Notes under the pieces: model-generated
The model's input: the letters and a program-made list of their open reading frames with translations, nothing else
The model's database searches: none
Told to the model about the DNA's origin: nothing
Shown: one piece after another, positions 9,367-64,000 of the stretch
How positions within the stretch are numbered: position 1 is the first letter of the stretch
Layout: every line of letters starts with the position of its first letter
From: Candidatus Sumerlaeota bacterium
Lineage (GTDB): Bacteria; Sumerlaeota; Sumerlaeia; JAFGJS01
Direction: 5' to 3'
Length of the DNA: 64,000 nucleotides
Assembly (NCBI GenBank): GCA_016928995.1
Contig: JAFGJS010000030.1
Span: 41,458 to 105,457, forward strand
Translations under genes and position numbers: made by a program

Positions 9367-10509
9367 TTATGCAGATTTATTTTCAGTGTAGATGGCTTTA
9401 AGCGCTTTGATATTGTTTTTTATATTGAATGGGCTTTTCTCAATGATGCTCAGGGCTTTGCTCTGTTTCATGATTCGATTCGTGATCTTCGTGTGGAATA
9501 TCGCTTGCGCCCATTCCTCTGGCGACTGCGATAGAGAGATTCTTTGTACGAGATGAGAGATGACATCCGCTTCTTTGGGGATTGTATCCGAACAAATGCA
9601 AGGCAGACCAGCGGCTTGCGCTTCCACCAGCGCCAGTCCTAAGCCTTCATATAGTGAAGGAAACAGGAATAGATCCATCGCGCCTAGCATGATTTGCGGC
9701 ACATCAGTACGAACTCCTGTAAAAAAAACATTGTCTTTAAGCCCAGATTGAGCGGCTTGGACTTCAATCTTCGACTTAAACTTTCCATCACCCACAAATA
9801 AAAAAACAATGCCGGGATCTTTTTTTTGAATTTCTCTAGCGATTTCAATAATGAATTCATGGTTTTTTTGGCTATTTCGAAAGCTTCCCACATGGCCTAC
9901 TACATAAGCGCCTTTTGGCAATCCGAACGATTCTCGCAAAACATCCTTTTTCGTCGTTGCTCCAAATATAGAAAAATCCACGCCGTAATATAAAAGTTTC
10001 CAGCGTGAATCCTCGCGCCAATGCGGGCCGAAATAGCTGTTGGCTGCTATTTCTGAACAAGCGAATCCATGTGTGGCGTGAACTTTGCTGTTTTTTTGAC
10101 TCTGTAGTGCAAACAACCGCTGGAAAAAATTACTTGGCATCGCCTGGGACATGTCGTTGTGGCTATGGACAATGCGGATGGGCGTTCCAACTTGTTTGGC
10201 GGCGGACATAACAGGGCCGTTCCAGTTCACGCAATGCGAATGGACAACATCATATGGCCCGTATTTTATTAGTATCGCTTTTAATTCGCGCATATATCTC
10301 AACGGCCGGGAGGGTGAGCAACAATGATATAAACTACACCCCATATCCTTCAATTCCTCGCCATAATCGCCAGGCTTGTCTGCATGAATAAGAAAGTCCA
10401 TGCGATATTGATCGCGATCAATGTTACGTAATACATGCATTAACCACGTCTCAACTCCTCCGCGATTCATCGAGTAAACGACTTGAAGTATTCTTACAGG
10501 CTTAACCAT
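9367..10509 (-). CDS. Glycosyltransferase, GT4 (EpsF-like)
   Basis: 380-aa glycosyltransferase. The N-terminus RILQVVYSMNRGGVETWLMH is the classic GT4 opening with the GGVE loop. YDVVHSHCVNWNGPV and the donor site LFPSLYEGLGLALVEAQAAG follow, the latter with the two glutamates of the E-x7-E motif (EGLGLALVE). Overall it resembles exopolysaccharide glycosyltransferases of the EpsF type. Base composition in this part of the locus is more AT-rich than in ligA or the dcw genes, which is common for polysaccharide loci. It belongs to the four-gene glycosyltransferase run. Confidence 0.88.
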   Translation of the reverse strand: MVKPVRILQVVYSMNRGGVETWLMHVLRNIDRDQYRMDFLIHADKPGDYGEELKDMGCSLYHCCSPSRPLRYMRELKAILIKYGPYDVVHSHCVNWNGPVMSAAKQVGTPIRIVHSHNDMSQAMPSNFFQRLFALQSQKNSKVHATHGFACSEIAANSYFGPHWREDSRWKLLYYGVDFSIFGATTKKDVLRESFGLPKGAYVVGHVGSFRNSQKNHEFIIEIAREIQKKDPGIVFLFVGDGKFKSKIEVQAAQSGLKDNVFFTGVRTDVPQIMLGAMDLFLFPSLYEGLGLALVEAQAAGLPCICSDTIPKEADVISHLVQRISLSQSPEEWAQAIFHTKITNRIMKQSKALSIIEKSPFNIKNNIKALKAIYTENKSA

Positions 10510-49885: not shown

Positions 49886-51241
49886 ATGACGGACGTCCCG
49901 TTTGAAGTGGTCAGCGACGAACCGCGCGCGGCGGTGATCAAGGTCATCGGCTCCGGCGGCGGCGGCTCCAACGCCGTGGACAGCATGATCAAGCACGGCA
50001 TCGACTCCGTCGAGTATTTCGTGGTGAACACGGATGCGAAGGCGCTGAGCCGTTCGATGTGTCAGAACAAGATTCAGATCGGCGTGGAGATCACCAACGG
50101 TCTTGGCTCCGGCGGCGATCCGGCCGTGGGCAAGACTTCCGCCGAGGCGGCCGAGAATCAGCTGCGCGAAGCGCTGGCCGGCGCCGACATGGTTTTCCTC
50201 ACGGCCGGGTTGGGCGGCGGCACGGGCACGGGCGCGAGTCCGGTCATCGCGCGCATCGCCAAGGAGATCGGCGCGCTGACCGTTGCGATCATGACGAAGC
50301 CGTTTCGCTTTGAAGGTCCGCAGCGCATGCGCAGGGCGATGCAAGGCGTGGAGCAGCTACGGGAGTTCGTCGACACGCTGATCCTGATCAGCAACGACCG
50401 GCTGCTGGAAGTGATCGACCGCTCGGCCACGCTGGTGGACGCGTTCAACATCGCCAACGGCGTGCTCTGCCAGGGCGTGCAGAGCATCAGCGACCTGATC
50501 AGCGAGCCGGGATTGATCAACGTGGATTTCGCCGACGTGCGCACGATCATGGGCGGCACGCATGGCGCCGTGATGGGCATCGGCGTCGGCCGCGGAGACG
50601 ATCGCGCCGTGGAGGCTGTAAACAAAGCCTGCGCCAGTCCGCTGCTCGACAAGATTGTGATCGACGGCGCGCGCGGCGTGCTGATCAGCATCTGCGGCGG
50701 ACCGGAACTCAAACTGCTCGAAGTCAACGAGGCCATGACGCTGGTCTACGAAAAGGCCGATCCCGAGGCGAACATCATCTTCGGCGCCGTGATCGATGAG
50801 AAAATGAAGGACGAGGTGCGCGTGACGATCATCGCCACGGGTTTCCTGGATGACGAAGCCGACGCCTTGCCCGGAAAATCGAAATACGCCGCGCCTCAAG
50901 CGCAAGCGAAATCCTCCGAGGTTCAGGACGAAGCGCCGCGACAGCCGCTGAAGTCCCCCACCTCTCCTGTCTCGCTGAAATCGAAACTGGAGTCGATGAT
51001 CGGCAAAGAGGCTTCGCCGCAACCGAACGCCAAGGCTCGTCCGGAAGCTCCCAAAACAAAGGAAACCGATACATCCTCCGTTCCAACTCCGACGCCTTCC
51101 GATGTGAAAATCGGCACGGCGGAGATCGAGATGGATTTCACGGATGAGGATGAAGAGAGCCCGCAAGAATCCAAGCAGGCCTCGGACAATGAGGATCCGG
51201 ACATCCCGGCTTATCTGCGCAACAAGGACCTACTGGACTGA
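49886..51241 (+). CDS. ftsZ: Cell division protein FtsZ
   Basis: 451-aa tubulin-like GTPase that builds the division ring. AVIKVIGSGGGGSNAVDSMI at the N-terminus, tubulin signature LGGGTGTGASPVIA, and the T7-type region NVDFADVRTIMGGTHGAVMG. After residue 330 a long, variable linker rich in Ala, Pro, Ser and Glu leads to the C-terminal tail NEDPDIPAYLRNKDLLD, which holds the D-I-P-A-x-L-R peptide bound by FtsA. The frame starts at a TTG (49865), but the ATG at 49886 follows a GAGAGGGAG and is preferred. Confidence 0.96.
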   Translation: MTDVPFEVVSDEPRAAVIKVIGSGGGGSNAVDSMIKHGIDSVEYFVVNTDAKALSRSMCQNKIQIGVEITNGLGSGGDPAVGKTSAEAAENQLREALAGADMVFLTAGLGGGTGTGASPVIARIAKEIGALTVAIMTKPFRFEGPQRMRRAMQGVEQLREFVDTLILISNDRLLEVIDRSATLVDAFNIANGVLCQGVQSISDLISEPGLINVDFADVRTIMGGTHGAVMGIGVGRGDDRAVEAVNKACASPLLDKIVIDGARGVLISICGGPELKLLEVNEAMTLVYEKADPEANIIFGAVIDEKMKDEVRVTIIATGFLDDEADALPGKSKYAAPQAQAKSSEVQDEAPRQPLKSPTSPVSLKSKLESMIGKEASPQPNAKARPEAPKTKETDTSSVPTPTPSDVKIGTAEIEMDFTDEDEESPQESKQASDNEDPDIPAYLRNKDLLD

Positions 51242-51260
51242 CGCGTCGCTATGGAGCGAG

Positions 51261-54200
51261 ATGCTGCGGACACATTTCAATAAAGCGAAACATAAAAGAG
51301 CGCTTTTTACGCGGCTTGCTATCGCGCTCTTTCTGCCATTGCTGGCGGCTCATACGCTGGCGCTGGATTGGACCAGCGCCAGCGTTCGCACGTTCGAGGC
51401 GAATGGCGAGCTTTATGCATACGTCACGCAGTACGGGGATTTTTTCCTTAAAGGAAAACTGCGTGAGTTTTCGGACGTGCCGGATACCCCGCCGGATGAT
51501 TGTTTCGTTTTTTTTGATTCATCTCCGCTCGCCGTCATCAATGCCGCCACGGGCGATTTATCGTTGCGGGGCAAGGTGATTCATCAACCCTATATTGTCG
51601 ATAACCAGTCGTTGAAGTTAAAATACTATAATCGGGACAATGAGATTGTCGCGGCGTTCTCCGAACAGGGCGATCTGTACTTACGGGGGCATGTATTATG
51701 TGACAATGAATATCAGGACAGCTCGTTATCTCCCGATGTGCTGTTCGCTCAACGATCCCTATCCGTGCGGCTTCGCTGCGAGAATCAAATCAATCCAGAC
51801 TGTGTAGATCCAAATACTCTACCGCGCTTGTCATGGACGGTGGACTACAATCACCTCGTGCAGCCTGGCTTGAGCGACATCGTTCAAACCGGATATGAAA
51901 TACGAGTCTATCACAATGCGATATTGATGGCGATGGACGGCCTTGGAGCGTTGGGCTTCAAATTAAATACATATCTTTATCAGCAGCGGAACGACGATAC
52001 GTTTCAATCTGTTAATATACCATTGAACATCAACGAGTTGATTCCAGGAAAAAGATACTATTGGAAGGCGATTATTTCATATTCCGCCAAAATCAATGGC
52101 GCGCCAGTTAAGTTTCAATTAGATAGTTATCAAAGCAATCTGTATTATACTGCACGCGAAAGCCGGGAATCCTGGTTCGAAACGGGATTGCAGCATAGTA
52201 CAACATCAACGCTGACGGCTGATAATGACTGGTGCATCGGCGACAATGATCCGATTGAATGGCTTGGCGCCGCCAAGCCCAGCGACGAATTCAAGCGCAT
52301 TGATCGCTTGGGCGTGAAGTCGGAATATTATGCGTTCAATGCGGATAAGGATGCCGATGATCCGGAGAATAAAGGTTATCCGCATTATTTCATTCTGGAC
52401 ATGGCCCGGCGGCAGGACAGTATAAAAGAAATACATCTCTATCCTGCGCAGTGGTTTCGATACAAAGCCAATAAACTCCAACTCGAAAACGGCCGGCGTC
52501 ACAAGGATTTTCTCAATCAGTATTTCCTGTTTCCCATAACGCATGACATGGATCAATCGGGCCATTTAAAGATACAATCGGCGCGCGATGAGACATCGTC
52601 CTTTAGGGTGGTCGGCGATTATCAGGTCATCGCGCCGAACGAAAATCAGCCTTATGCCAAGATTGTATTTCAAGACGCCCTGGACGGCGTGCGATACATT
52701 AAATTGTCCTTCTGTAAACTTGCCAAAGCCGGAGACGGAGCTTACGGAGTCGCATTCGCTGAGATTGAGGCGTATAAGCAGGGCGCTACGGCGACAAATC
52801 CTGCAGCATATGCCAAGAACAATAATATATTATTGAATGAGAATGATGATCCATCCGGACCGATTGTTATTTGTTATTCCGGATTTTATAACCTTGATCC
52901 GGCTACGCCATCAGAGGCGGCGCAATACGATATTTCCCGGACGCAGTTTCCCTATCCGGCCCAATGGGATCCGCGAAACGCCAATGATGGAACGCGTATT
53001 ACCACTGCATATCCCGGCGGATCGGTTGTGTTTAGAAGAAAGTTGCCGCCACCGGTCGATCCCGGCAGACAGTATTTATATATCTCTGCCTTAGGATTGT
53101 ACGAGGCCTTTATTGTGCAGATGAATGAGGCGGGCGGAATTGATCACATCGTTCGGATCGGCGATAATCAATTGGCTCCGGAATGGACTGATTATAAATC
53201 GCGCGTTCAATATCAGAAATACGATATAACCGGCATGTTGTCCGGAGAGAACGATTATATTTATGTGACGCTTGTGGATGGCTGGTATGCGGGGCTGCAA
53301 GGCCCGATGGAATGGCGCCGTAGTTACGGCGAGTCGCCGAAGTTTATTATGCAGATTCGTAATTATGATGAGAACAAAGATCTGGCGCCAGGCGCACCGT
53401 GGTGTATATCGCATAGCGGTTCTCGCAAGCTGGGCGACGAGTCAAGGGGCGCCTGGGAGGTCGCGTATAACGGGCCGATTCGCGCGTTTTGTCATTATCG
53501 CGGCGAGGTTTGGGACGAGGACAAGGCTGACTTCAATAACTTGATCTTTACGACAAACGGGATCGAATCCTGGCCGGTTACGGATGTCAATTCACGTGCG
53601 AAGCCGATCGTGAAAATGCAGCAGGAGTATCGCCATCGCGATGGCTTGGAATCAAATCCATATGATATTAATTATTTCGCTGAGGAAGATTTGCATCACT
53701 CTATATCGTTGCAACCACAATCGTATCCGCCGATGAAATTCACGCAACTCATGACGCCGGTCCGTCCCGCCTGGCGGCAGGATGACGGCGCCTGGGTGTT
53801 TGACTTTGGGCAAAATATCGTGGGACGGCCCAGAATGAGATACACTGTTCCGGCAAACACGTTTTCCGAAGTTGGCATCGTTTTCGCGGATTTCCTGAGT
53901 CAGGAGGGCGAGAAGAATAAGATCTATCTTGCATGCAACAAAGGCAATTACGCGATGGATCTATGCAAGAAAGATAATTCGCAAGGCGCTGAACCTTATA
54001 TCGTCGATTTTCAGCCGCGGTTTTCCCGGCATCCGTTTCGATACATGGCGGTGTATGGCTTGGAAGAGACGCCTGCCGCCGATCCAAACTTTATTATTGA
54101 AGCCTATGCGTTGCATAACGCCCTTGAACGGACGATTGATTTCGAGTGCTCCTCGCGGGATCTTAATCAATTGATGCGCAATATCATGTGGACGCAACGA

Positions 54201-55724
54201 AACGCGCTGATGGGGATGGTCGCCGATTGCAGCAATCGGCAGGAGGCGCTGAGTTATGCGAATAACAATTTCATGCAGACGTCGATGTATAATATGAACA
54301 TGGCGCCGCTTTACCGGAAAGTGTTGGGCGACTTTTTCGACACTCGCAGAGGGACCGAGTTTTCATTGTTCGCGCCAACGGTGTCGCGCAATCATTTCAT
54401 GTGGAATTTTCACGGATGGTCGGATGGCGTGTTTGAAATCCCCTATTATTTATATGTTAATTATGGCGATGATGAAGCTATCCAAAGTGATAGTATTTTC
54501 GATGGATTCAGGGATTATCTGGATCATGTATTAAGCGAGAATACAGGGCTGATTAGTTATAATGAAGATACGTTGTGGGACCCGGGGTATTATTATTCCC
54601 GGCATTTTTTCGCCAGCGATTGGTTGAATGAATCATCGATATATACGACGCCATCCGTGAAAAACGGCTGGGGCGATCATCTCGGGCCGCCCACGAGCCA
54701 AAGCGCCACTGACTATGAACTGACCGGGATGGCGTTCATCGCGGATGATTGCCGCAAAATGCACCTGATGGATTTGATTAAAAACGGGTCGCAGAGCCTT
54801 GAAGGCAGCGTTCGATTGCATGCGACGTATGGCGAGCTGTTTGAGCGCATAAAGGCCGTTTTTAAGCAATGGTACACGCCCGATTCAATCGCCAGCGGCC
54901 ACGTGCGCAACAGCAAAACGGATAACAGCCTTGTCCATACGCAAGGGGCGTATGCGCTGCCAGTGTTCTTGGGGCTGCTTGACGACGTTTCCGGGATTTA
55001 TGCACTCCGGCTGGCGCAGATTATCATGAACTGCCGATATGACCCTGCGTTGAATCAACATCTGACCACGGGCAATCACGGCGCCTGGCGGACGATGCGC
55101 GTCCTTGGGGATTCCGGCCAGTTCGCCGCGGCTTATGCGGCGTTGTTTCAGCGCGGTTGTCCGGGGTGGCTGTATATGATCGATCAGGGCGCGACAACGG
55201 TTTGGGAGCGTTGGGATACGATGCTGGAAGACCGGACAACGAGCGATTCCGGCTATCCGGTTCCCTTTGCGCGGCCGGTGATGAATTCCGCCAGTCATCC
55301 GATGTTTTGCGGCGTGGGCGAATTTATTTACCGTTATATCGGCGGATTGCATCCGGACGAGGAACTGATCAATGATAATGGCGAGTCGCGCAATGTTCAG
55401 GGGTATAAAGAGTTTATGGTGAAATTCAGGCCGTCCGTGGAGCATGGCCTGACTCGCGCGCGGACCGAATATCAATCGGCTCATGGGCGTATCGTGATTC
55501 AATGGGAGTTGCAGGGCGCGACGGATGACAGCGAGTTGCGCTTGAATGTCGCTGTTCCGCCGAATGCATCGGCGAAAATCTGCATGCCTGCTCCCGGCGG
55601 CGCCAATTATATCGTCACGGATCAAGCGAAGCACCAATTCGCTTCTGGCGGTATGGATGAAGATTATCTGGAGTTTACGGTGGGATCTGGGCGTCACGAG
55701 TTTATCCGCGCGTTAGTTCCTTAG
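51261..55724 (+). CDS. Large secreted GH78-like alpha-L-rhamnosidase
   Basis: 1487 aa with a signal peptide (RLAIALFLPLLAAHTLA). Beta-sandwich modules fill the first 850 residues. The catalytic part has GAWVFDFGQNIVGRPRMRYT, typical of bacterial rhamnosidases, then the (alpha/alpha)6 barrel region NQLMRNIMWTQRNALMGMVA and ALFQRGCPGWLYMIDQGATT (WxxM...G). At the acid-residue site the protein reads ADCSNRQEALSYANNNF: Asp989 and Glu995 are kept, but the later Asp of family members aligns with Asn1002. It would release rhamnose from polysaccharide outside the cytoplasm if active. GGAGCGAG precedes the ATG. Unexpectedly it follows ftsZ by 19 bases. Confidence 0.8.
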   Translation: MLRTHFNKAKHKRALFTRLAIALFLPLLAAHTLALDWTSASVRTFEANGELYAYVTQYGDFFLKGKLREFSDVPDTPPDDCFVFFDSSPLAVINAATGDLSLRGKVIHQPYIVDNQSLKLKYYNRDNEIVAAFSEQGDLYLRGHVLCDNEYQDSSLSPDVLFAQRSLSVRLRCENQINPDCVDPNTLPRLSWTVDYNHLVQPGLSDIVQTGYEIRVYHNAILMAMDGLGALGFKLNTYLYQQRNDDTFQSVNIPLNINELIPGKRYYWKAIISYSAKINGAPVKFQLDSYQSNLYYTARESRESWFETGLQHSTTSTLTADNDWCIGDNDPIEWLGAAKPSDEFKRIDRLGVKSEYYAFNADKDADDPENKGYPHYFILDMARRQDSIKEIHLYPAQWFRYKANKLQLENGRRHKDFLNQYFLFPITHDMDQSGHLKIQSARDETSSFRVVGDYQVIAPNENQPYAKIVFQDALDGVRYIKLSFCKLAKAGDGAYGVAFAEIEAYKQGATATNPAAYAKNNNILLNENDDPSGPIVICYSGFYNLDPATPSEAAQYDISRTQFPYPAQWDPRNANDGTRITTAYPGGSVVFRRKLPPPVDPGRQYLYISALGLYEAFIVQMNEAGGIDHIVRIGDNQLAPEWTDYKSRVQYQKYDITGMLSGENDYIYVTLVDGWYAGLQGPMEWRRSYGESPKFIMQIRNYDENKDLAPGAPWCISHSGSRKLGDESRGAWEVAYNGPIRAFCHYRGEVWDEDKADFNNLIFTTNGIESWPVTDVNSRAKPIVKMQQEYRHRDGLESNPYDINYFAEEDLHHSISLQPQSYPPMKFTQLMTPVRPAWRQDDGAWVFDFGQNIVGRPRMRYTVPANTFSEVGIVFADFLSQEGEKNKIYLACNKGNYAMDLCKKDNSQGAEPYIVDFQPRFSRHPFRYMAVYGLEETPAADPNFIIEAYALHNALERTIDFECSSRDLNQLMRNIMWTQRNALMGMVADCSNRQEALSYANNNFMQTSMYNMNMAPLYRKVLGDFFDTRRGTEFSLFAPTVSRNHFMWNFHGWSDGVFEIPYYLYVNYGDDEAIQSDSIFDGFRDYLDHVLSENTGLISYNEDTLWDPGYYYSRHFFASDWLNESSIYTTPSVKNGWGDHLGPPTSQSATDYELTGMAFIADDCRKMHLMDLIKNGSQSLEGSVRLHATYGELFERIKAVFKQWYTPDSIASGHVRNSKTDNSLVHTQGAYALPVFLGLLDDVSGIYALRLAQIIMNCRYDPALNQHLTTGNHGAWRTMRVLGDSGQFAAAYAALFQRGCPGWLYMIDQGATTVWERWDTMLEDRTTSDSGYPVPFARPVMNSASHPMFCGVGEFIYRYIGGLHPDEELINDNGESRNVQGYKEFMVKFRPSVEHGLTRARTEYQSAHGRIVIQWELQGATDDSELRLNVAVPPNASAKICMPAPGGANYIVTDQAKHQFASGGMDEDYLEFTVGSGRHEFIRALVP

Positions 55725-55768: not shown

Positions 55769-56581
55769 CTAGTAGAACAGCGTGTATTCCTCGCCTTTGA
55801 ATTCCACGACGACGGATTCGCTTTGAATGTCGATGATTTTAAGGCCGCGGATTTCGTCGCCGATATAGACCACTTGCTCGCAGACCATGGCCTTCGGCGC
55901 CTCTTTGCTCCAAATGATGCCGTTGATCGTCACTTCTTCGATGCTCTCGATGGGCTTGGCGCCGCGGCTGTAGATCACTTTGCGTTTCGGACGCTGACTC
56001 GTCCCGGTTTCTTCCTGCGGCGCTTCGTCCTGGGCGTCGGCTTGTGTTTTTTCCTGAACTGCTTCCGCTTCGGGCGTCATCTCGAAATTCAGCTCCACGA
56101 TTTGCATCGGGACTTCATTTTCCGGCGCGGATGCGTCTGCGTCCGCCGATTTCGGCGTCGCCTCAGTGTGCGCGATCGGAGCTTGATCCGGCGGCTCTTC
56201 TGCAGTGATGGCCGGAGCGTCTGCCGGCGTCGTATGAGGCGCGAGCTCTTTGTTCAAGGTTTGAGGCTGCTGAACTAAGGCAGGAGCGGCGAGCTGCGGC
56301 GCTGTGCGGGATGCGCTGATTGTCATTTGATACAGCAGCATGCCGCCGACGCCCGCCAATGCGATGATGGCCAGCGAAACAAGGACCGCGCCTGCGAAAA
56401 TCAGGGCGCCGGTGTTTCCTCGCGCGGCGGAATGTTGCTGCTCTTCGCGCTCCGGTGCTTCTGTCTCGTCGTCGCCGCCTTGCTGGTAGGCCAGCTCGTT
56501 GTAAAGCTGGGAATCCTCCGTCGCTTGCTCCTGATCGCGTTCGCGTTTCGCCTTGGACAATGCATTCAGAATGATGCTCAT
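55769..56581 (-). CDS. gspB: General secretion pathway protein B (GspB-like)
   Basis: 270 aa. The N-terminus MSIILNALSKAKRERDQEQA is the characteristic opening of GspB. One transmembrane helix follows (ALIFAGAVLVSLAIIALAGV), then a Pro/Ala/Glu-rich periplasmic linker of about 110 residues. The C-terminal T2SSB domain is clear: EEVTINGIIWSKEAPKAMVC, then VVYIGDEIRGLKIIDIQSES. With GspA it helps the outer-membrane secretin assemble across the cell wall. Its ATG overlaps the gspA stop by 4 bases, so the pair is translationally coupled. Confidence 0.87.
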   Translation of the reverse strand: MSIILNALSKAKRERDQEQATEDSQLYNELAYQQGGDDETEAPEREEQQHSAARGNTGALIFAGAVLVSLAIIALAGVGGMLLYQMTISASRTAPQLAAPALVQQPQTLNKELAPHTTPADAPAITAEEPPDQAPIAHTEATPKSADADASAPENEVPMQIVELNFEMTPEAEAVQEKTQADAQDEAPQEETGTSQRPKRKVIYSRGAKPIESIEEVTINGIIWSKEAPKAMVCEQVVYIGDEIRGLKIIDIQSESVVVEFKGEEYTLFY

Positions 56582-58467
56582 AATGGCAGTTCCTCCCCTT
56601 CGGTCAGGCGGGGATGATCGGCATGAAAGAGCAGCGAGAGATACAACGCGGTCCTGGCGTCGATTTCACCCGTGGCCTTGAGCTGGTGATAACGCTGAAA
56701 ACGGATCAGCGCCTCTTCGGTGAAACGTCCATAGTTGCCATCCAGCGCGTAATCGTAAAATTTGCGCTCCTTGAGCGCTTGTTGCAGTTTCTTCACGCGT
56801 TCGCCCTCTTCGCCGCGCAAGACCTGATTGAGCCGCAACTGGTCGAAGTAAACGACGCGCACCGTCGCCACCCGGCGCGAAAGCCAGCTGCGCTGCACGA
56901 TGCTGCAGCCCCAGATCGGATCGTGGATCGTGATCGCTTCGCCTTCCATGCGGCGCAACACAACCCACGGCGAGAGTTGATCCTGCCCTTCCGGCGTGAT
57001 TTTCAACAGCAGCGGCACGTCGTAAACCAGGGCTTTCTCCAGCCCCTCCTCCGCGTCGAACCACGCCACGCCCAAGCCGTAATTGGCGGCCAGTAAATCA
57101 AGCTCCGCCATTTGCTCGGCATCGCGTTCGTGCAGATCGCCCATGTTCGCCGGACGCACCCGCCATACGGAGAGCAAGCTCAAAACCGCGGCCGCCTGCG
57201 TCTGGTACGGCTCCATGACTCGCAGGATTCCGTTCTCATCGTACTTCCAGGCGGTGTCCTGTGTCACGGGATTTTTACGCGGCTCCGGTTTCGGCGGTTC
57301 TGGCTCCGGCAGGTCGATGGCGATGCGGACGTATGACGAAGCCGCGTTCTGCGCCTGCGCCGTTGCCGTCGTCGCGCCCGTTTCCAACTCCGGCGGCAGG
57401 GCGATGACCACCGGCGGACGCGCCGCCGCATCGCTTTCAATTCCGGAGTCATCCGCCGCGCCGCCGATTTTTGCCAGCAGTTCATTCACGCCCATGTCGC
57501 GGCGGGACATCTCCTGCAGTCCGTAATACGCCCCGCCTCCCGCGGCGATCAGCAGCAGCGCCAAGGTCAGCGGCAGCCAGAACCGGCGGCGTTTGCTTTT
57601 TGGCGCGCCGCTCTGAGCGCGCCGCCTTGATCCTTTGGACGCGCGCGAGTCGTCAGCCCGCTTGCCTGTGATCTCCGACACGGCCTGGCGCACCATGCGC
57701 TCGTCCACGATGTACGAACTCGCCACGTACGCCGCCATCAGCGCGTTGTCGCAGACCACGTTGATCTTGCGCGGCACGCCGGCGCTGTGCTCGAAAATCC
57801 GCCGCAGCGCTCCGGGCGTCCAATTGATTTCGATCTTCGCCTGCGCCCGGTTCAGCCGGTGCCGGATATACGCCGGGACTTCATCCTCCGGCAGCGGTTT
57901 AAGGTGGTAGCGCACGGTGATGCGCTGATTGAGCTGCTCGAGCTCCGGCAGCGCCATGATGTCGTTGAGCTCCGGCTGACCCATCAGCACGATCTGGATC
58001 AGTTTCTCGCTTTCGGTCTCCAGGTTGCTGATCATGCGCACCTGTTCGAGGGTTTCGGGCGCCATATTCTGCGCCTCGTCGATAATCAGCACGCATGTGC
58101 GGCCCTGGTTGAAGCGCTCGAGCAAGTAGATATTGAGCGCATCGATCAACCCCTTCTTTGTCTCCGCCGTGCTGTCGATGCCGAAGTCGTCGTTGATCGC
58201 GCGCAGCAGTTCGATGTCCGTGAGGTACGAATTGAAAATCACGGCGAATTCGATTTCCGATTCGCCCAGGTCGCGCAGCAGCGCGCGGCACACGGTCGTC
58301 TTGCCCGCGCCGACGTCGCCGGTGAGCATGATGAAGCCCTTGCGTTCCTGAATGCCGTAAAGCAGCGCCCCGATCGCCTCGCGGTGCTGCCGGCTGAGGT
58401 ACAGGAAACGCGAATCGGGCGTCAGGTTGAAGGGCGCCTCTTCCAAGCCGAAAAATTTGTTGTACAT
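56578..58467 (-). CDS. gspA: General secretion pathway ATPase GspA/ExeA
   Basis: 629 aa. N-terminal AAA ATPase: MYNKFFGLEEAPFNLTPDSR opening, Walker A LTGDVGAGKTTVCRALLR, Walker B CVLIIDEAQNMAPETLEQVR. A transmembrane helix follows near residue 295 (FWLPLTLALLLIAAGGGAYY). In the periplasm there is a C39-peptidase-like module (YQTQAAAVLSLLSVW...) in which Ala replaces the catalytic cysteine, as in ExeA relatives, then a peptidoglycan-binding domain (GEEGERVKKLQQALKERKFY). GspA remodels or binds peptidoglycan for secretin insertion. Overlaps gspB by 4 bases. Confidence 0.9.
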   Translation of the reverse strand: MYNKFFGLEEAPFNLTPDSRFLYLSRQHREAIGALLYGIQERKGFIMLTGDVGAGKTTVCRALLRDLGESEIEFAVIFNSYLTDIELLRAINDDFGIDSTAETKKGLIDALNIYLLERFNQGRTCVLIIDEAQNMAPETLEQVRMISNLETESEKLIQIVLMGQPELNDIMALPELEQLNQRITVRYHLKPLPEDEVPAYIRHRLNRAQAKIEINWTPGALRRIFEHSAGVPRKINVVCDNALMAAYVASSYIVDERMVRQAVSEITGKRADDSRASKGSRRRAQSGAPKSKRRRFWLPLTLALLLIAAGGGAYYGLQEMSRRDMGVNELLAKIGGAADDSGIESDAAARPPVVIALPPELETGATTATAQAQNAASSYVRIAIDLPEPEPPKPEPRKNPVTQDTAWKYDENGILRVMEPYQTQAAAVLSLLSVWRVRPANMGDLHERDAEQMAELDLLAANYGLGVAWFDAEEGLEKALVYDVPLLLKITPEGQDQLSPWVVLRRMEGEAITIHDPIWGCSIVQRSWLSRRVATVRVVYFDQLRLNQVLRGEEGERVKKLQQALKERKFYDYALDGNYGRFTEEALIRFQRYHQLKATGEIDARTALYLSLLFHADHPRLTEGEELPL

Positions 58468-58680: not shown

Positions 58681-60027
58681 ATGAACGCACTTCCTGTCAT
58701 CGCCATTGTCGGCCGCCCGAACGTGGGGAAATCCACGCTGTTCAACCGCATTTGCGGCTCGCGCAAGGCCGCCGTGCTCGATACGCCTGGCGTCACGCGC
58801 GACCGCAATTACGAGGAATGCGAGATCGGCGGACGCGGATTTATCCTGATCGACACCGGCGGCTATGACCCGGACGAGGATTCATCGCTTGCGTTCCATA
58901 TGCGCGAGCAGATCGCAATGGCTGTAGAGGAGGCGGACGCTATCATCCTGATTGTGGACCGCATGCAGCCGGACAATCCGATCGACCGCGAAATGGCGGA
59001 GAAACTGCGCCGCAGCGGCAAGACGTGCCTGCTCGCGGTGAACAAGTGCGACAACGTGCAGCAGGAACAGGAGGCGTGGGGTTTCACCGAGTTGGGCGTG
59101 GGCGAGGTTCATCCGGTGTCCGCGCTGAATGGCGCGGGCGTGGCCGAGTTGCTGGAAAACGCGCTGGAGTCGCTGCCGCATGTGGAGGCGCCGCCGAAAG
59201 ATGAGGACGCGCTGAAGATCGCCGTGGTCGGCCGGCCGAACGTGGGCAAGAGCACGCTGGTGAACCGCATTCTGGGCGCGGAACGGGTGATCGCCGATTC
59301 CACGCCTGGCACCACGCGTGACGCCATCGACATGCCCTTCACACGCGACGGGCGCAATTACGTCCTGATCGACACGGCGGGCATCCGGCGGCGCGGCAAG
59401 GTCGAGCGCGGAATCGAGAAACTCAGCGTGATGAGCGCGCTGATCAGCCTCAAGCGCTGCGACGTAGCGCTGATCCTGCTCGACGCCGAACGCGGCATCA
59501 CCGACCAGGACACGCACATCGCGGGCTACGCCGAAGAAAGCGGCAAACTGCTGATCTTCATCGTGAACAAATGGGACGCTGTGCCGGACAAGGACAATTC
59601 AAGCGCCGGCGACTTCGTCAAAAAAATCCGTCAGGAATTCAAATTTCTCCAGTGGGTTCCGATCCAGTTCATCAGCGCCAAAACCGGCGACCGGGTGGGG
59701 CGCATCTTCAAGATCATCGACGAGCTCATGCCGCAGTACGACTGCCAGATCCCCACGTCGCAGGTGAACGACGCGATTCAGCAGGCGCTGATCGATCATT
59801 CGCCGCCGATGCGCCGCGGCCTGCGGTTGAAGATCAAGTACGCCTGCCAGACCGGCTCCAAACCGCCGATCTTTTCGCTCTTCGTCAACGATCCTGGCCT
59901 GATCCACTTTTCCTATCGTCGCTATCTGGTCAACAAGTTGCGCGAATCCTTCGGCCTGACCAACGTCCCCCTCTGGCTCGCGCTCAAACGCAAGTCAACC
60001 AATCGCTACGTAAGCGATGAGGATTAA
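58681..60027 (+). CDS. der: Ribosome-assembly GTPase Der (EngA)
   Basis: 448-aa double GTPase needed for 50S ribosomal subunit maturation. First G domain: AIVGRPNVGKSTLFNRICGS, DTPGVTRDRNYEE, LIDTGGYDPDE, NKCDNV. Second: AVVGRPNVGKSTLVNRILGA, STPGTTRDAIDMPFT, LIDTAGIRRRGKVERGIEKL, VNKWDAVPDKD. The C-terminal KH-like domain is KPPIFSLFVNDPGLIHFSYR, and LVNKLRESFGLTNVPLWLAL closes the protein. Complete. Divergent from gspA over a 213-base gap that probably carries both promoters, though I see no clear sites. Confidence 0.96.
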   Translation: MNALPVIAIVGRPNVGKSTLFNRICGSRKAAVLDTPGVTRDRNYEECEIGGRGFILIDTGGYDPDEDSSLAFHMREQIAMAVEEADAIILIVDRMQPDNPIDREMAEKLRRSGKTCLLAVNKCDNVQQEQEAWGFTELGVGEVHPVSALNGAGVAELLENALESLPHVEAPPKDEDALKIAVVGRPNVGKSTLVNRILGAERVIADSTPGTTRDAIDMPFTRDGRNYVLIDTAGIRRRGKVERGIEKLSVMSALISLKRCDVALILLDAERGITDQDTHIAGYAEESGKLLIFIVNKWDAVPDKDNSSAGDFVKKIRQEFKFLQWVPIQFISAKTGDRVGRIFKIIDELMPQYDCQIPTSQVNDAIQQALIDHSPPMRRGLRLKIKYACQTGSKPPIFSLFVNDPGLIHFSYRRYLVNKLRESFGLTNVPLWLALKRKSTNRYVSDED

Positions 60028-60095: not shown

Positions 60096-60116
60096 AGAAG
60101 TTGCTTGCAACCTTCT
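60096..60116 (+). terminator. Possible terminator after der
   Basis: An imperfect hairpin (AGAAGTTGC against GCAACCTTCT, one bulge) 70 bases after the der stop and before the converging DUF1573 gene stop. It is followed by an AT-rich stretch (ATCATTTATTTTAT). The loop is very short, so support is weak. Confidence 0.3.
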
Positions 60117-60121
60117 ATCAT

Positions 60122-62008
60122 TTATTTTATATTTAGAACATGAAAGATCGGTGATTCCGAGTTCGTCATCTCACCGGAAAAAGAGATTTTACCCAATCCC
60201 TCTCCAGCCGGATCAATAAACTGCACTCCATTTTCCATATAGATCTCTTGATTTGCAGCTATCGAAAATGAAAATGTGTAATTAAATTTTGGCGATTTTG
60301 GCAACCGAATGCCTTCGATTATCATTTTTCCAGAATAGCTCGGATGAACTTTAACTATTCGCACTTGATGAGTGCCCGCATCTTCCGCATTGCCAGATAA
60401 CTCTATGCCAAGAAACAGTGGTTCTTGTATGCTATTATCCAAGATGATCGAAAACATGTGATGGTTGTCTGCATATCTGCCTTCATATTTTATCTCACGA
60501 ACAGAAAGAGTTCTATCCATATTATGCAACATTCCCCGCCAGATCGTTTGCGAAACCACTTGATTGTCAAATTCATTAAACACCATGAGAGGCGTTAAAT
60601 CCTGTATATCGCCTTTCTCGTCACAGAGTTGCAAATGCAATATCTGATTTTCCTTGCTAGTATATGCTTTTTTTAATTCAAGTTGTAGCTTTTCATAATC
60701 ATTGATCTTCTCTATAGCATTAAGACCCCACCGATCTTCTGGAAGTCCTATAATATTGAAGCGCAATGGAATCCCCGGCATATTTTGTTTTATATAAAAC
60801 TCCGTATGAGCGTCCACGATATTTTCAATCATTAACGGTTTTGGAATAAAGCTTACTCGGCCTATTATATCTGCAAAAACTGGCAGATGCTGAGAGCCCA
60901 TATTGGTGACGACATTTATGGTTCCAAATTTTTTGCCCACTGAAAGTTTATCATCATTTATTGCAATTTTTATTATATCGTTCTCGAAATCACACTCGAC
61001 CCAATCCTCCAAAGTTTCTACTTCTTTAATACATACGGAGTCAATGCGATCTTTAAGGATGCCAATGCTAATAGGTTTGGGTATTTCCCATGAACCGAAT
61101 CGACCAAAATAAACCTTATTCATTGTCAAACCAATTGGCGAAATGTAGTTAACATGGATTTCAATCAGTTCTGTCGATTGAATTATTTCATTTTTGGCAG
61201 AAACACTGGAATAATAATTTCGTTCTCCATATTCATCAATAGGAGGTGTTATTGATAATGTAATGGAGGATACCTCATCTGGAAGGAGGATTGTTCCCTC
61301 GCCTTGAGAAGCGATACAACCACAGGAACTCTCTATAGATTCGATTGTAACCGTATGTGTTGAAATGTTTTTTATCTTAAATTGTTTTATTATCTGATGA
61401 TGACCATTAATTGCAACGTTTCCTAAGTCTATCTGGTTTGGCGTTATTTCTATTAGGTGTGGTCTTTCATACGTTTCATCCGAAGATTTCTCAACCGATG
61501 CACTTATTGGAAAATTCTTGAGGATTATTCTATCCAAGTCATAAGTGATAGGAGGCAAGCGAAGCGCCACAGAATTACTGCTTTCCAAGAGATACTCAAT
61601 ATCTTCTAATTGATATGTTGGCGGATCAATGATTAAGCACTGCTTTGGATTGTTAAATCCTAATGTGACCACAAAATGATCACGTTGCTGAGTATGCAAC
61701 GAAACAATGCAGGGACGGCCGCCATCTCTCAAATGAGAACTCTTGATTTTTATTCCCTCACACTCAATGCCATAATTTTCAATTAAGCGCTTGAGATCCA
61801 ACAGGGAGTTCGATTTTCTTCGTTGATTCTGAATCTGTTTTGCAAGACTGTTTAGCGATACATCTACATCATATAATTTCAAAAGAAAATATGAACATCG
61901 AACGCCACACGGTAAATCGGCAATACTAACAACAGCCGGATCATTGCCCCAGGCAAACGCCCAGCTCAATGAATAAAATATAACCAATATACTGTTTCTA
62001 TTTAACAT
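60122..62008 (-). CDS. Secreted C39-like peptidase fused to DUF1573
   Basis: 628 aa from the ATG at 62008, with signal peptide (SILVIFYSLSWAFAWG). Residues 30-155 look like a C39-like peptidase: nucleophile candidate Cys34 in LPCGVRCSYFLLKLYD, His111 in QRDHFVVTLGF and Asp128 in LIIDPP, spacing typical of the Cys-His-Asp set. Residues 188-310 form a DUF1573 beta-sandwich (ITPNQIDLGNVAINGHHQII, SSCGCIASQG). The rest is beta-rich and unrecognised. It overlaps the upstream membrane-anchored gene by 11 bases. Unlike C39 domains in ABC exporters, this one would face the periplasm, and could trim the Cys-rich peptide encoded at the head of the cluster. AT-rich relative to neighbours. Confidence 0.78.
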   Translation of the reverse strand: MLNRNSILVIFYSLSWAFAWGNDPAVVSIADLPCGVRCSYFLLKLYDVDVSLNSLAKQIQNQRRKSNSLLDLKRLIENYGIECEGIKIKSSHLRDGGRPCIVSLHTQQRDHFVVTLGFNNPKQCLIIDPPTYQLEDIEYLLESSNSVALRLPPITYDLDRIILKNFPISASVEKSSDETYERPHLIEITPNQIDLGNVAINGHHQIIKQFKIKNISTHTVTIESIESSCGCIASQGEGTILLPDEVSSITLSITPPIDEYGERNYYSSVSAKNEIIQSTELIEIHVNYISPIGLTMNKVYFGRFGSWEIPKPISIGILKDRIDSVCIKEVETLEDWVECDFENDIIKIAINDDKLSVGKKFGTINVVTNMGSQHLPVFADIIGRVSFIPKPLMIENIVDAHTEFYIKQNMPGIPLRFNIIGLPEDRWGLNAIEKINDYEKLQLELKKAYTSKENQILHLQLCDEKGDIQDLTPLMVFNEFDNQVVSQTIWRGMLHNMDRTLSVREIKYEGRYADNHHMFSIILDNSIQEPLFLGIELSGNAEDAGTHQVRIVKVHPSYSGKMIIEGIRLPKSPKFNYTFSFSIAANQEIYMENGVQFIDPAGEGLGKISFSGEMTNSESPIFHVLNIK

Positions 62009-63188
62009 CAGCTGCTCGCTTTCTTCCATAAATAAGAAATGAGATAACGCCAACAATTACAAGTGAAATGAAAGTGACTATAAACAAAATATATTTTACT
62101 CTATGTTTTTTCTTTATTTCAGGATTATTGTCTTTAATTTTATTCATTCCCCTGATCTGATTTGCAAGATTTGCAATTGCGTCAACGTTTTCATCATGCG
62201 GTATATGTGACGTCTCTGCTTTCTGATATTCATTCTCTTTGCGATCCAAGTTTACATCATCGTCCAATTTAAGCGTTGCTGGAAATTTGAGTTTGCTTAC
62301 GCTTTCGCCTATAATGTAATCATATACATCAGTGTCAGGCGGAAAATGTGGATCAAATATGCTGTCATCAACTTCTTTTAGAACCTTAACACCCGTGATG
62401 ATCGAACGCGTCTCAACGGCGGGGATAAATTCAGTAGAGGCACCCTCATGTATAGGAATATATGAAATTGATGAATACTCCATCGGCATATAAACCGCTC
62501 CATATAACCCCTCGATCGCATCTACCTTATCAACTGAGCCTTTATTTATTACATTCCCATGCTTATCTGAGATATTATATGAAACTGGAAGGTATTCGTA
62601 TCGGGCGTCAAATATATACTTTGCAATATAGTTTTTCCATGCAGTAAATTCAATTATGACCTGATCTTCAGAAAATGATATGATGGCGGTTTGTGCGTTA
62701 TCTTCAAGCCATTTATACAGTTCCTTATTCATTAATGTCGTATAAAATGGATCCAATGTTTCTTGAATCAAATTGCTCTTTGATTGAGAGACCGTGCCAT
62801 GCTTTTTATCAGGATAAAAAACAGATTCAACGCTGCCATTCCATCGCCGCAAACTCTTTCCTGCCACATCTTCTCCCTCGGGCAAATAATCAACCTCCTC
62901 GATATACTGTTTCTCATGGTGATATATCATTTTAAGATGCACTTTTTGATCGATTCGGTCTTGATCGGCGTAGCCAAGTTTTGATGGATATGTTTCACGT
63001 AAATATCGTGTCGCATATTCAGTTCTTGTCTGTATTTGCTCAATGCTATATTCAAGCGCAGGAATTGATTCTTGTCGTTGTTTTAAGCGGAAAACTATTT
63101 GCTCGATAAGGTCCGGTGAATGTTCAGCATCAGTCCACGCATTAGTGATAATTGAAACAGTAATAAAAAAAACACATATGAATCTCAT
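61998..63188 (-). CDS. Exported, C-terminally anchored protein of unknown function
   Basis: 396 aa. Signal peptide (FICVFFITVSIITNAWTDA), a long mixed domain, and a C-terminal transmembrane helix (YILFIVTFISLVIVGVISFL) followed by basic YGRKRAADVK, so the bulk is outside the cytoplasm. The domain opens IEQIVFRLKQRQESIPALEY and contains FDARYEYLPVSYNISDKHGN and YGAVYMPMEYSSISYIPIHE, a beta-rich pattern reminiscent of LolA/outer-membrane-lipoprotein-sorting folds, but I am not sure of that. It overlaps the C39-DUF1573 gene and follows the peptide gene, so a role in processing, holding or release of the peptide is inferred from context. Confidence 0.6.
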   Translation of the reverse strand: MRFICVFFITVSIITNAWTDAEHSPDLIEQIVFRLKQRQESIPALEYSIEQIQTRTEYATRYLRETYPSKLGYADQDRIDQKVHLKMIYHHEKQYIEEVDYLPEGEDVAGKSLRRWNGSVESVFYPDKKHGTVSQSKSNLIQETLDPFYTTLMNKELYKWLEDNAQTAIISFSEDQVIIEFTAWKNYIAKYIFDARYEYLPVSYNISDKHGNVINKGSVDKVDAIEGLYGAVYMPMEYSSISYIPIHEGASTEFIPAVETRSIITGVKVLKEVDDSIFDPHFPPDTDVYDYIIGESVSKLKFPATLKLDDDVNLDRKENEYQKAETSHIPHDENVDAIANLANQIRGMNKIKDNNPEIKKKHRVKYILFIVTFISLVIVGVISFLIYGRKRAADVK

Positions 63189-63214
63189 AGATCATAACCA
63201 CCATTATATTTGTT

Positions 63215-63256
63215 ACACGGCGTGCGCATAGACTGCAATCTATGCGCGCGCCGTGT
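63215..63256 (-). promoter_or_regulatory. Stable hairpin between the Cys-rich peptide gene and downstream genes
   Basis: An 18-bp stem: ACACGGCGTGCGCATAGA (63215-63232) pairs with TCTATGCGCGCGCCGTGT (63239-63256) with one G-U wobble, loop CTGCAA. On the gene strand the stem is followed by AACAAATATAATGG, not a run of U, so it is not a standard terminator for the peptide mRNA. The T-tract lies on the opposite side (TTTTTCTTTT) and would terminate only rightward transcripts. It probably protects or attenuates the peptide mRNA, making more peptide than processing protein. Confidence 0.6.
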
Positions 63257-63293
63257 TTTTCTTTTAATGCATCAAAGGATCAATTCATCGTCG

Positions 63294-63764
63294 TTAGCAT
63301 GTTAAGTGGTTTTCACAATCCATATATGGGATATGAATGCAGCCCCAAAAGCCCGTAACGGCGCATTTTCCATTTTCACAATCCACATCTGCATGTTGGC
63401 ATGCATACCATTTCCCACACCAGATTGTCGTAATCGCCTCACAATTCGGATCTGGGCTTTGATTGGGGCCTATACAACGCTTTTGCGCTGTAAAATCTTT
63501 CTCGCATTTTGTGATCGACCATACTCCAGAAAGACAATCATCCTGTGAACTACAAGAAGCACCCTCTGTTGAACCTCCAACAATTGTATGCCCGCACACA
63601 TTCATCTTGAAGACACATGTTGGGCCGCACGTAGCTTCTGCGACAATAGTATCAAGTTCTGAATCAGAAACTGCATTCGAGGTAATCATTGCTTGAGTGG
63701 CATATAAGAATATACCGCCAATTGCAATAAAACATGCTAGCTGTACCTTTTTTTTCAATTTCAT
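63294..63764 (-). CDS. Cysteine-rich exported peptide precursor with C39-like leader motif
   Basis: 156 aa. Residues 1-30 are a hydrophobic export signal (KKKVQLACFIAIGGIFLYAT). Residues 32-44, VSDSELDTIVAEA, resemble the ELxxIxGG/GA end of leaders cut by C39 peptidases, though the last two residues are not Gly-Gly. The region after it (from Cys46) contains 15 cysteines in about 110 residues, including CGPTC at its start and two DCEN motifs near the C-terminus (DCENGKC, DCENHLTC). An odd number implies one free or intermolecular cysteine. A strong AAGGAGG precedes the ATG. It heads a leftward cluster with a membrane-anchored protein and a C39-DUF1573 protein. No known family recognised. Confidence 0.72.
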   Translation of the reverse strand: MKLKKKVQLACFIAIGGIFLYATQAMITSNAVSDSELDTIVAEATCGPTCVFKMNVCGHTIVGGSTEGASCSSQDDCLSGVWSITKCEKDFTAQKRCIGPNQSPDPNCEAITTIWCGKWYACQHADVDCENGKCAVTGFWGCIHIPYMDCENHLTC

Positions 63765-63846
63765 GTTTGACCTCCTTGGTCATTATAATAATGTTAGATT
63801 ACCGTACAAGACGATAAATTTATTACTGCACCTTATTCACTTCAAA

Positions 63847-63999
63847 TTATGCTGCAATAGTGGCCATCACAGTTTCGGACCAGGGGCCGGGTTCTTGCCG
63901 GGTGTTGACCCAGCGGGCGGCCCACCAGGCGGGCTTGCCGGCGTCTTCGGCTTCGAAATGATAGACGTATGGCGTGGCGGAGTCGTACGCGACGTATTG
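63847..63999 (-). CDS. C-terminus of an Fn3-associated or secreted protein (partial)
   Basis: Reverse-strand frame open from the right edge to a TAA at 63847-63849; 50 residues seen. It reads YVAYDSATPYVYHFEAEDAG, WWAARWVNTRQEPGPWSETV and ends VMATIAA. Segments of this kind end proteins that accompany the Fn3 family seen at 14892-15500 in this window. Its N-terminus lies to the right, outside the window, and no function can be given. Confidence 0.6.
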   Translation of the reverse strand, partial: QYVAYDSATPYVYHFEAEDAGKPAWWAARWVNTRQEPGPWSETVMATIAA

Positions 64000-64000
64000 C

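Follow-up and report, generated by a model that had tools for sequence, protein, structure and literature searches.

A candidate cassette for maturing Sec-exported cysteine-rich peptides, with a C39::DUF1573 protein, in Candidatus Sumerlaeota and other bacteria

Organization of the locus

The window, by which we mean the whole 64,000 nucleotide stretch analysed here (Candidatus Sumerlaeota bacterium, contig JAFGJS010000030.1), carries near its end an AT-rich cassette of three genes, read leftward in the order Cys-rich precursor peptide (63294-63764), LolA-like protein (61998-63188) and a protein joining a C39 peptidase domain to a DUF1573 domain (C39::DUF1573, 60122-62008). An initial annotation had placed three leftward genes together here (a 156 aa exported precursor with 15 Cys after its leader, an exported protein with a C-terminal anchor, and a signal-peptide protein combining a C39-like domain, with Cys34, His111 and Asp128, with DUF1573) and had reported an overlap of the two larger genes. 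All three open reading frames (ORFs) were recovered in place, on the minus strand, in an ORF check of the window, and the C39::DUF1573 gene (ATG 62008) overlaps the preceding LolA-like gene by 11 nt. The precursor and its Cys count agree with the ORF and its predicted leader, the anchored protein with an N-terminal signal segment and a hydrophobic stretch at about residues 366-391, and the third protein with its Pfam matches and choice of start, the numbering Cys34/His111/Asp128 holding with the ATG at 62008. The middle protein, exported and anchored as described, receives one correction, being labeled LolA-like by a hidden Markov model (HMM) of the neighbour family. The features are:

60110..63860, no strand assigned: AT-rich cassette, with der (58681-60027) on one side and a GC-rich gene's tail, at the contig end, on the other
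63294..63764, minus: Cys-rich precursor peptide, 156 aa; ATG start, ribosome-binding site AAGGAGG
63672..63764, minus: N-terminal basic and hydrophobic signal/anchor segment, residues 1-31 of the precursor (sequence, hydropathy)
63636..63671, minus: C39-type leader segment VSDSELDTIVAE, residues 32-43 of the precursor (consensus of PMC6959990)
63297..63635, minus: predicted mature Cys-rich core, 113 aa, 15 Cys, net charge -5, from a putative cleavage site
61998..63188, minus: exported LolA-like protein with C-terminal membrane anchor, 396 aa (ORF; neighbour-family HMM built including this protein)
62016..62093, minus: C-terminal transmembrane anchor, about residues 366-391 (hydropathy; AlphaFold2 helix 356-394)
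60122..62008, minus: exported C39::DUF1573 protein, 628 aa; ATG start, a TTG start at 62056 being less likely
61907..61909, minus: codon of catalytic Cys34, C39 domain
61676..61678, minus: codon of catalytic His111, C39 domain
61625..61627, minus: codon of Asp128, C39 domain
61247..61450, minus: DUF1573 domain as matched by Pfam
61316..61324, minus: CGC motif Cys229-Gly-Cys231 of the DUF1573 domain (sequence)

The cassette has a GC content of 38%, against 61% in the flank. The window is the final 64 kb of a 105-kb contig from a metagenome-assembled genome and stops at the contig end, 236 bases upstream of the peptide gene, where the view upstream also ends. No gene resembling a peptidase-containing ATP-binding cassette (ABC) transporter (PCAT) was found anywhere in the 64-kb window.

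The C39::DUF1573 protein matches Peptidase_C39 (PF03412; E 7e-12, 45.7 bits against a cut-off of 22) and DUF1573 (PF07610; E 8e-8, 32.7 bits against 26.1), the latter with its CxC as CGC at 229-231. Its order of signal peptide, C39 and DUF1573, without fusion to a transmembrane domain (TMD) or nucleotide-binding domain (NBD), sets it outside the PCATs, and from signal segment and domain order it is predicted to be a Sec-exported C39 without an ABC transporter. A C39 profile run against the PDB found the LahT double-glycine protease (6mpz, E 1.2e-18) and PCAT1 (1e-17). An AlphaFold2 model of the C39-DUF1573 region, built on a shallow alignment and of moderate confidence, has a mean predicted local distance difference test score (pLDDT) of 51, with about 45-82 per 10-residue block in the C39 part. 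The modelled C39 superposes on the peptidase domains of ComA, PCAT1 and LahT (Z 10-11, 118-122 residues, root-mean-square deviation ~3 A), and the top Foldseek match is again 6mpz (E 9.5e-5). Judging from the aligned ranges, Cys34, His111 and Asp128 fall at C21, H99 and D115 of PCAT1, so that the C39-like fold first read from the sequence is also the fold of the model. The DUF1573 part aligns with immunoglobulin (Ig)-like and major sperm protein-like folds.

Recurrence across genomes

Relatives were sought by profile search of 386 genomes plus further phyla, with phyla counted from the search tool's phylum sets (loci are numbered L, genomes G). Parts of the cassette recur in five phyla, Sumerlaeota and four more, often in the same order; this recurrence, together with the GC contrast, marks the cassette as more than a chance assembly. 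The three genes of the initial annotation thus stand together elsewhere, including a second copy in the window genome. That copy, L073 (G000:C36), encodes a DUF1573 protein, a Cys-rich peptide of 100 aa with a double-glycine (GG) leader, and LolA-like and C39 proteins that each end in a C-terminal anchor; the same four parts lie in identical order at L012 (G006). L074 (G001) has peptide, LolA-like and C39::DUF1573 genes in window order, preceded by an extracytoplasmic function (ECF) sigma factor and a zinc-finger (zf-HC2) anti-sigma factor. A further Sumerlaeota locus, L083, has LolA-like, DUF1573 and Cys-rich genes without C39, and its peptide is leaderless. Peptide and LolA-like genes lie within a few kilobases of C39::DUF1573 at L117 (G152), L118 (G183), L119 (G354) and L116 (G167), and many further loci in the phyla of G354 and G183 show the same association. 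At L116 the C39::DUF1573 part is followed, within a single protein, by thioredoxin-like and CcdA-like parts, the last two called from sequence. Eight loci encode LolA::C39::DUF1573 fusions (L121, L193, L196, L197, L201, L205, L209, L211). At none of the 25 precursor loci was a peptidase-containing ABC exporter detected.

Among Pfam models, LolA_like (PF17131) does not match the LolA-like protein of the window; of its homologues only that at L117 passes (30.7 against 30 bits). A search of genome contigs for close homologues of the window protein found nothing, and a plasmid search returned only ABC exporters, plain DUF1573 proteins or unannotated partial matches. Two sets of candidate relatives were rejected as chance: weak matches of the window Cys-rich peptide at L008 and L009, which overlap unrelated genes, and a match of the anchored protein in G022, found on the antisense strand of a type II/IV secretion ATPase region.

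Three side observations concern these loci. The C39 gene at L012 has an in-frame TAG (10438-10440) shortly after the signal peptide, for which sequencing error, recoding and decay are candidates. Formylglycine-generating-enzyme-like genes repeatedly adjoin the cassette in one phylum (L119, L193, L197, L208, L209, L211, L121, L201, L217); a role on Cys residues is conceivable, as is a chance association. At L013 (G018:C301) a C39::DUF1573 gene adjoins rhodanese and DoxX/MauE-like genes, the C39 His position is Asp, and no Cys-rich peptide was seen on the short contig.

A double-glycine leader behind a Sec-type segment

C39 processing of double-glycine leaders is, in textbook form, cytoplasmic and coupled to ABC export. 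The initial choice of peptides near the C39 genes used Cys content and an N-terminal hydrophobic segment and took no account of the leader; L197 was added by eye and L222 from a leader-based scan. Short Cys-rich precursors, whose co-occurrence the initial annotation had marked for checking, are indeed present, and 24 of 25 peptides beside a C39 gene carry a C39-type leader (a score of 5 or 6 out of 6 against the C39 consensus). This link, a C39 consensus behind a Sec-type segment, was absent from that annotation and is added here. The leader consensus, LSDxEMxxLxGG, is in register with the published double-glycine site of PCAT substrates, L(-12)xxxE(-8)L(-7)xxxxG(-2)G(-1), in which the leader helix packs on the peptidase via -12 and -7 (PMC6959990). 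Across the 24 peptides the positions read L18/I3/V1 at -12 (22/24), E13/Q7/D2 at -8 (22/24), M19/L2/I2 at -7 (23/24), G21/A3 at -2 (24/24) and G14/A3/S2 at -1 (19/24); the L073 paralogue has K, E, L, G and G at these five. In all 24 the leader is preceded by 22-61 residues that include a hydrophobic stretch, and none has the N-terminal leader without Sec signal that is usual for double-glycine peptides. The NCBIfam GG-leader model TIGR04149 matches three precursors, below its cut-off.

A detector that includes the leader gave 24 hits in 327 kb near C39 plus DUF1573 genes, 23 of them real and one probably spurious, against a single hit in 489 kb elsewhere (L200, beside a stand-alone C39). These rates are descriptive, the detector having been tuned after some cases were seen. 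The combined shuffle p is ~1e-14 with the peptides treated as independent. No such peptides were found at control loci with stand-alone or ABC-fused C39 (L224-L236 except L233). The cores are mostly acidic, 44-170 aa long and variable in sequence, with 6-36 Cys. The window leader reads VSDSELDTIVAE followed by ATCGPTC, and is in register at -12 (V), -8 (E), -7 (L) and -4 (I).

The window peptide has no match to any Pfam or NCBIfam family. The precursor leaders may resemble the NVEALA leaders of Bacteroidetes; no mention of NVEALA was found in the literature searched. A reading of the peptides as classical cationic bacteriocins is disfavoured, most cores being acidic. Two further observations may be set down here: the L200 precursor (2044-2709) has 221 aa, 36 Cys and a GG leader, and adjoins a stand-alone C39 lipoprotein; and Sumerlaeota cores (window, L073, L074, L012) have odd Cys counts (15, 9, 13, 9), while 17 of 20 others are even.

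Co-loss of the catalytic Cys and the leader

Where the C39 beside DUF1573 has Ser or Thr for the catalytic Cys, a GG-leader peptide occurs at none of 8 loci, compared with 23 of 32 where the Cys is intact (Fisher p 3e-4; 2e-5 with truncated loci excluded). These p-values overstate the evidence, because the tree needs only three separate Cys losses. The closest pair is L212 and L213, whose C39::DUF1573 proteins are 62% identical: L213 has Ser for Cys, and its peptide has a deletion of the stretch between signal segment and core, which holds the leader. Further out in the same clade, L214 has lost the DUF1573 Cys pair and no Cys-rich peptide was seen. Loss of Cys together with leader offers indirect support, at the level of sequence comparison, for cleavage after the GG-type site.

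DUF1573 and a probable thiol role

The CxC of DUF1573 is kept at almost all loci with peptides, L116 and L117 keeping the first Cys only. Two LolA::C39::DUF1573 fusions, L121 (6268-8355) and L201 (352-1995), have an in-frame TGA at the first Cys of this motif, probably encoding selenocysteine (U); selenoprotein families listed in the literature include DUF1573, with the motif UGC (PMC9312934, PMC13188914). Thiol-redox genes are found nearby, MauE/thioredoxin-like near L074 and Trx-CcdA at L119, L191 and L197. Because of the CxC/UxC motif and these neighbours, DUF1573 probably assists disulfide formation in the core.

Interpretation and alternatives

From the features computed (gene association, domain content, leader register, Cys/leader co-loss and fusions) we infer a maturation cassette for Sec-exported disulfide-rich peptides in which C39 cleaves outside the cytoplasm; as a whole this is the best explanation, at a probability of roughly 0.75. 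The precursor would be exported by Sec on its N-terminal signal/anchor segment of ~30 residues, followed by the double-glycine-type leader and the Cys-rich core. C39::DUF1573, itself outside the cytoplasm, would bind the leader helix with its C39 domain and cut after the GG-type site, releasing the core; DUF1573 (Ig-like fold, CxC or likely UxC) would help form or shuffle the core disulfides, in a putative redox role; and, by analogy, the LolA-like protein may escort or hold precursor or product at the membrane. The processing role offered in the initial annotation thereby gains support from co-occurrence, C39 fold, leader behind a Sec segment and Cys/leader co-loss, the reaction itself being one we infer. 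Its placement of C39 action after export, with no ABC transporter alongside, also stands, although the arrangement is not unprecedented, FapD having gone before (PMC5557850).

This conclusion must be tempered by a number of observations that point the other way. Nine of the 32 intact C39 plus DUF1573 loci lack a GG-leader peptide (5 of the 9 are contig-truncated), the catalytic Asp is absent from the C39 of L012 and L074, and no clear counterpart is seen of the oxyanion Gln conserved in PCATs. The leader score used a tolerant alphabet of our own setting, and single-peptide shuffles are often not significant. In the window copy, the leader has A-E at -2/-1 where other family members have G-G, a shuffle test of that leader alone gives p 0.22, the C39 is among the most divergent in the tree (end branch 3.4), and the LolA-like label comes from a very divergent family HMM, with an AlphaFold2 model at pLDDT 34. 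CxC is moreover common to DUF1573 proteins in general, and so not specific to a disulfide role. Since its own site reads AE rather than GG, the window cassette is a divergent member of the family.

Four other explanations draw on the same data. The Cys-rich proteins might be surface-fibre subunits or plugs on a Fap-like or pilus-like export path, with an extracytoplasmic C39 trimming them as a step of fibre assembly, the part played by FapD in Pseudomonas. Secretion of FapC requires the active-site Cys of FapD, a periplasmic C39 exported by Sec (PMC5557850), the FilB and FapD models match the window protein weakly, and acidic, variable cores are unlike typical cationic bacteriocins; but no FapF-like barrel or fibre-forming repeats were noticed at the loci, the genes alongside encode LolA-like and DUF1573 proteins and no Fap partners, and Fap substrates lack the canonical GG leader found here, which leaves fibre export unlikely. 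We regard it as distinctly unlikely that the C39 domain only binds leaders, as a chaperone or sensor like the C39-like domain of HlyB, with any leader removal left to signal peptidase or another protease. Cys-to-Ser domains do persist (L209, L211, L213-L216, L237), some C39 lack the Asp and the window site is A-E, but Cys and His are kept at nearly all GG-leader loci, and leaders are lost or absent where the Cys is lost, the opposite of what pure binding predicts.

RseB has a LolA-like fold, and the cassette could on that footing be an envelope-stress or regulatory module with a LolA/RseB-like sensor, in which the Cys-rich peptide would sense redox state instead of being secreted as a product. 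The sigma/anti-sigma pair at L074 and the BlaI/M56 genes adjoining L118 would suit such a module; regulators vary by locus, however, the sigma/anti-sigma pair is absent from loci other than L074, and the cores vary too much in sequence and in number of Cys to suit a conserved sensor, making this improbable. Highly improbable, finally, is that these are ordinary double-glycine bacteriocin precursors or ribosomally synthesized and post-translationally modified peptides (RiPPs), processed in the cytoplasm and leaving the cell through an ABC transporter encoded elsewhere, with the hydrophobic N-terminus as part of an unusual leader. Their consensus is the PCAT one and TIGR04149 weakly matches three of them, yet the hydrophobic segment stands ahead of the leader in every one of the 24 peptides, signal peptides or anchors are present on the C39 proteins too, no peptidase-containing ABC exporter was found at the precursor loci, and ABC-linked C39 controls lack such peptides.

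Relation to known systems

The extracytoplasmic maturation cassette we favour works like double-glycine processing, yet is not a PCAT. PCATs (PCAT1, ComA, LahT; PF03412) share the C39 fold, Cys/His/Asp and leader register, but have a cytoplasmic C39 fused to TMD and NBD and substrates without a Sec segment, where the cassette has signal peptide, C39 and DUF1573 outside. Double-glycine leaders of bacteriocins and of Cytophaga-Flavobacterium-Bacteroides RiPPs (e.g. TIGR04149) share LSxxEM/LxxLxGG, whereas here the leader lies behind a hydrophobic Sec-type segment and precedes a Cys-rich core. The nearest precedent is FapD (NF058616), of the Pseudomonas functional amyloid operon, which shares a Sec-exported C39 without ABC domain but belongs to an unrelated, fibre-export operon with non-canonical substrates, the Fap proteins lacking canonical C39 sites; the window protein also has DUF1573, and scores 22.5 of 330 bits on the FapD model (cut-off not reached). 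FapD shows that peptidase activity is possible in a C39 exported by Sec, its substrate unclear, and its authors describe periplasmic C39 peptidases as uncharacterised and perhaps using another recognition sequence (PMC5557850). LolA_like outer-membrane lipoprotein-sorting proteins (PF17131) are linked to the cassette through the L117 homologue; the cassette proteins are very divergent from them and, in the window genome and G006, have a membrane anchor added. DUF1573/OS_HP2 (seleno)proteins with rhodanese and MauE/DoxX neighbours have in common an Ig-like domain with CxC or UxC, while in the cassette DUF1573 is fused to C39 and linked to peptides; the L013 locus may bridge the two.

No paper combining C39 and DUF1573 was found in the literature searched. 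At somewhat less than even confidence, the loci represent a multi-phylum class, not described before, of disulfide-rich peptides that Sec exports and that are matured outside the cytoplasm by a bifunctional enzyme in which a C39 double-glycine leader peptidase is joined to a DUF1573 thiol/selenol (CxC/UxC) domain that sets disulfides, with a LolA-like escort. Five phyla together supply over 20 putative natural pairs of enzyme and substrate with an explicit leader motif, which makes recognition by periplasmic C39 directly testable; the system also brings to light, in bacteria that have been little studied, a pool of secreted Cys-rich peptides lacking annotation, and it offers a function for DUF1573 and LolA-like, two domains whose role in such a setting is unclear.

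Neighbouring genes

A GC-rich gene family (PDFIPQQDAEFDEWLAG...GPWSETVMATIA) ends immediately upstream of both AT-rich cassettes of the window genome and also adjoins a third DUF1573 gene (copies at window 63850-64000, L073 8392-8950 and L084 4018-4761); its repeated presence may mark preferred insertion or linkage. Just before der, a T2SSB/GspB-like protein lies beside an AAA plus peptidoglycan-binding ExeA/GspA-like protein (55769-58467, minus), and at 51144-55724 (plus) the window encodes an exported GH78-type alpha-L-rhamnosidase of 1526 aa in which the Pfam rhamnosidase domains are present.

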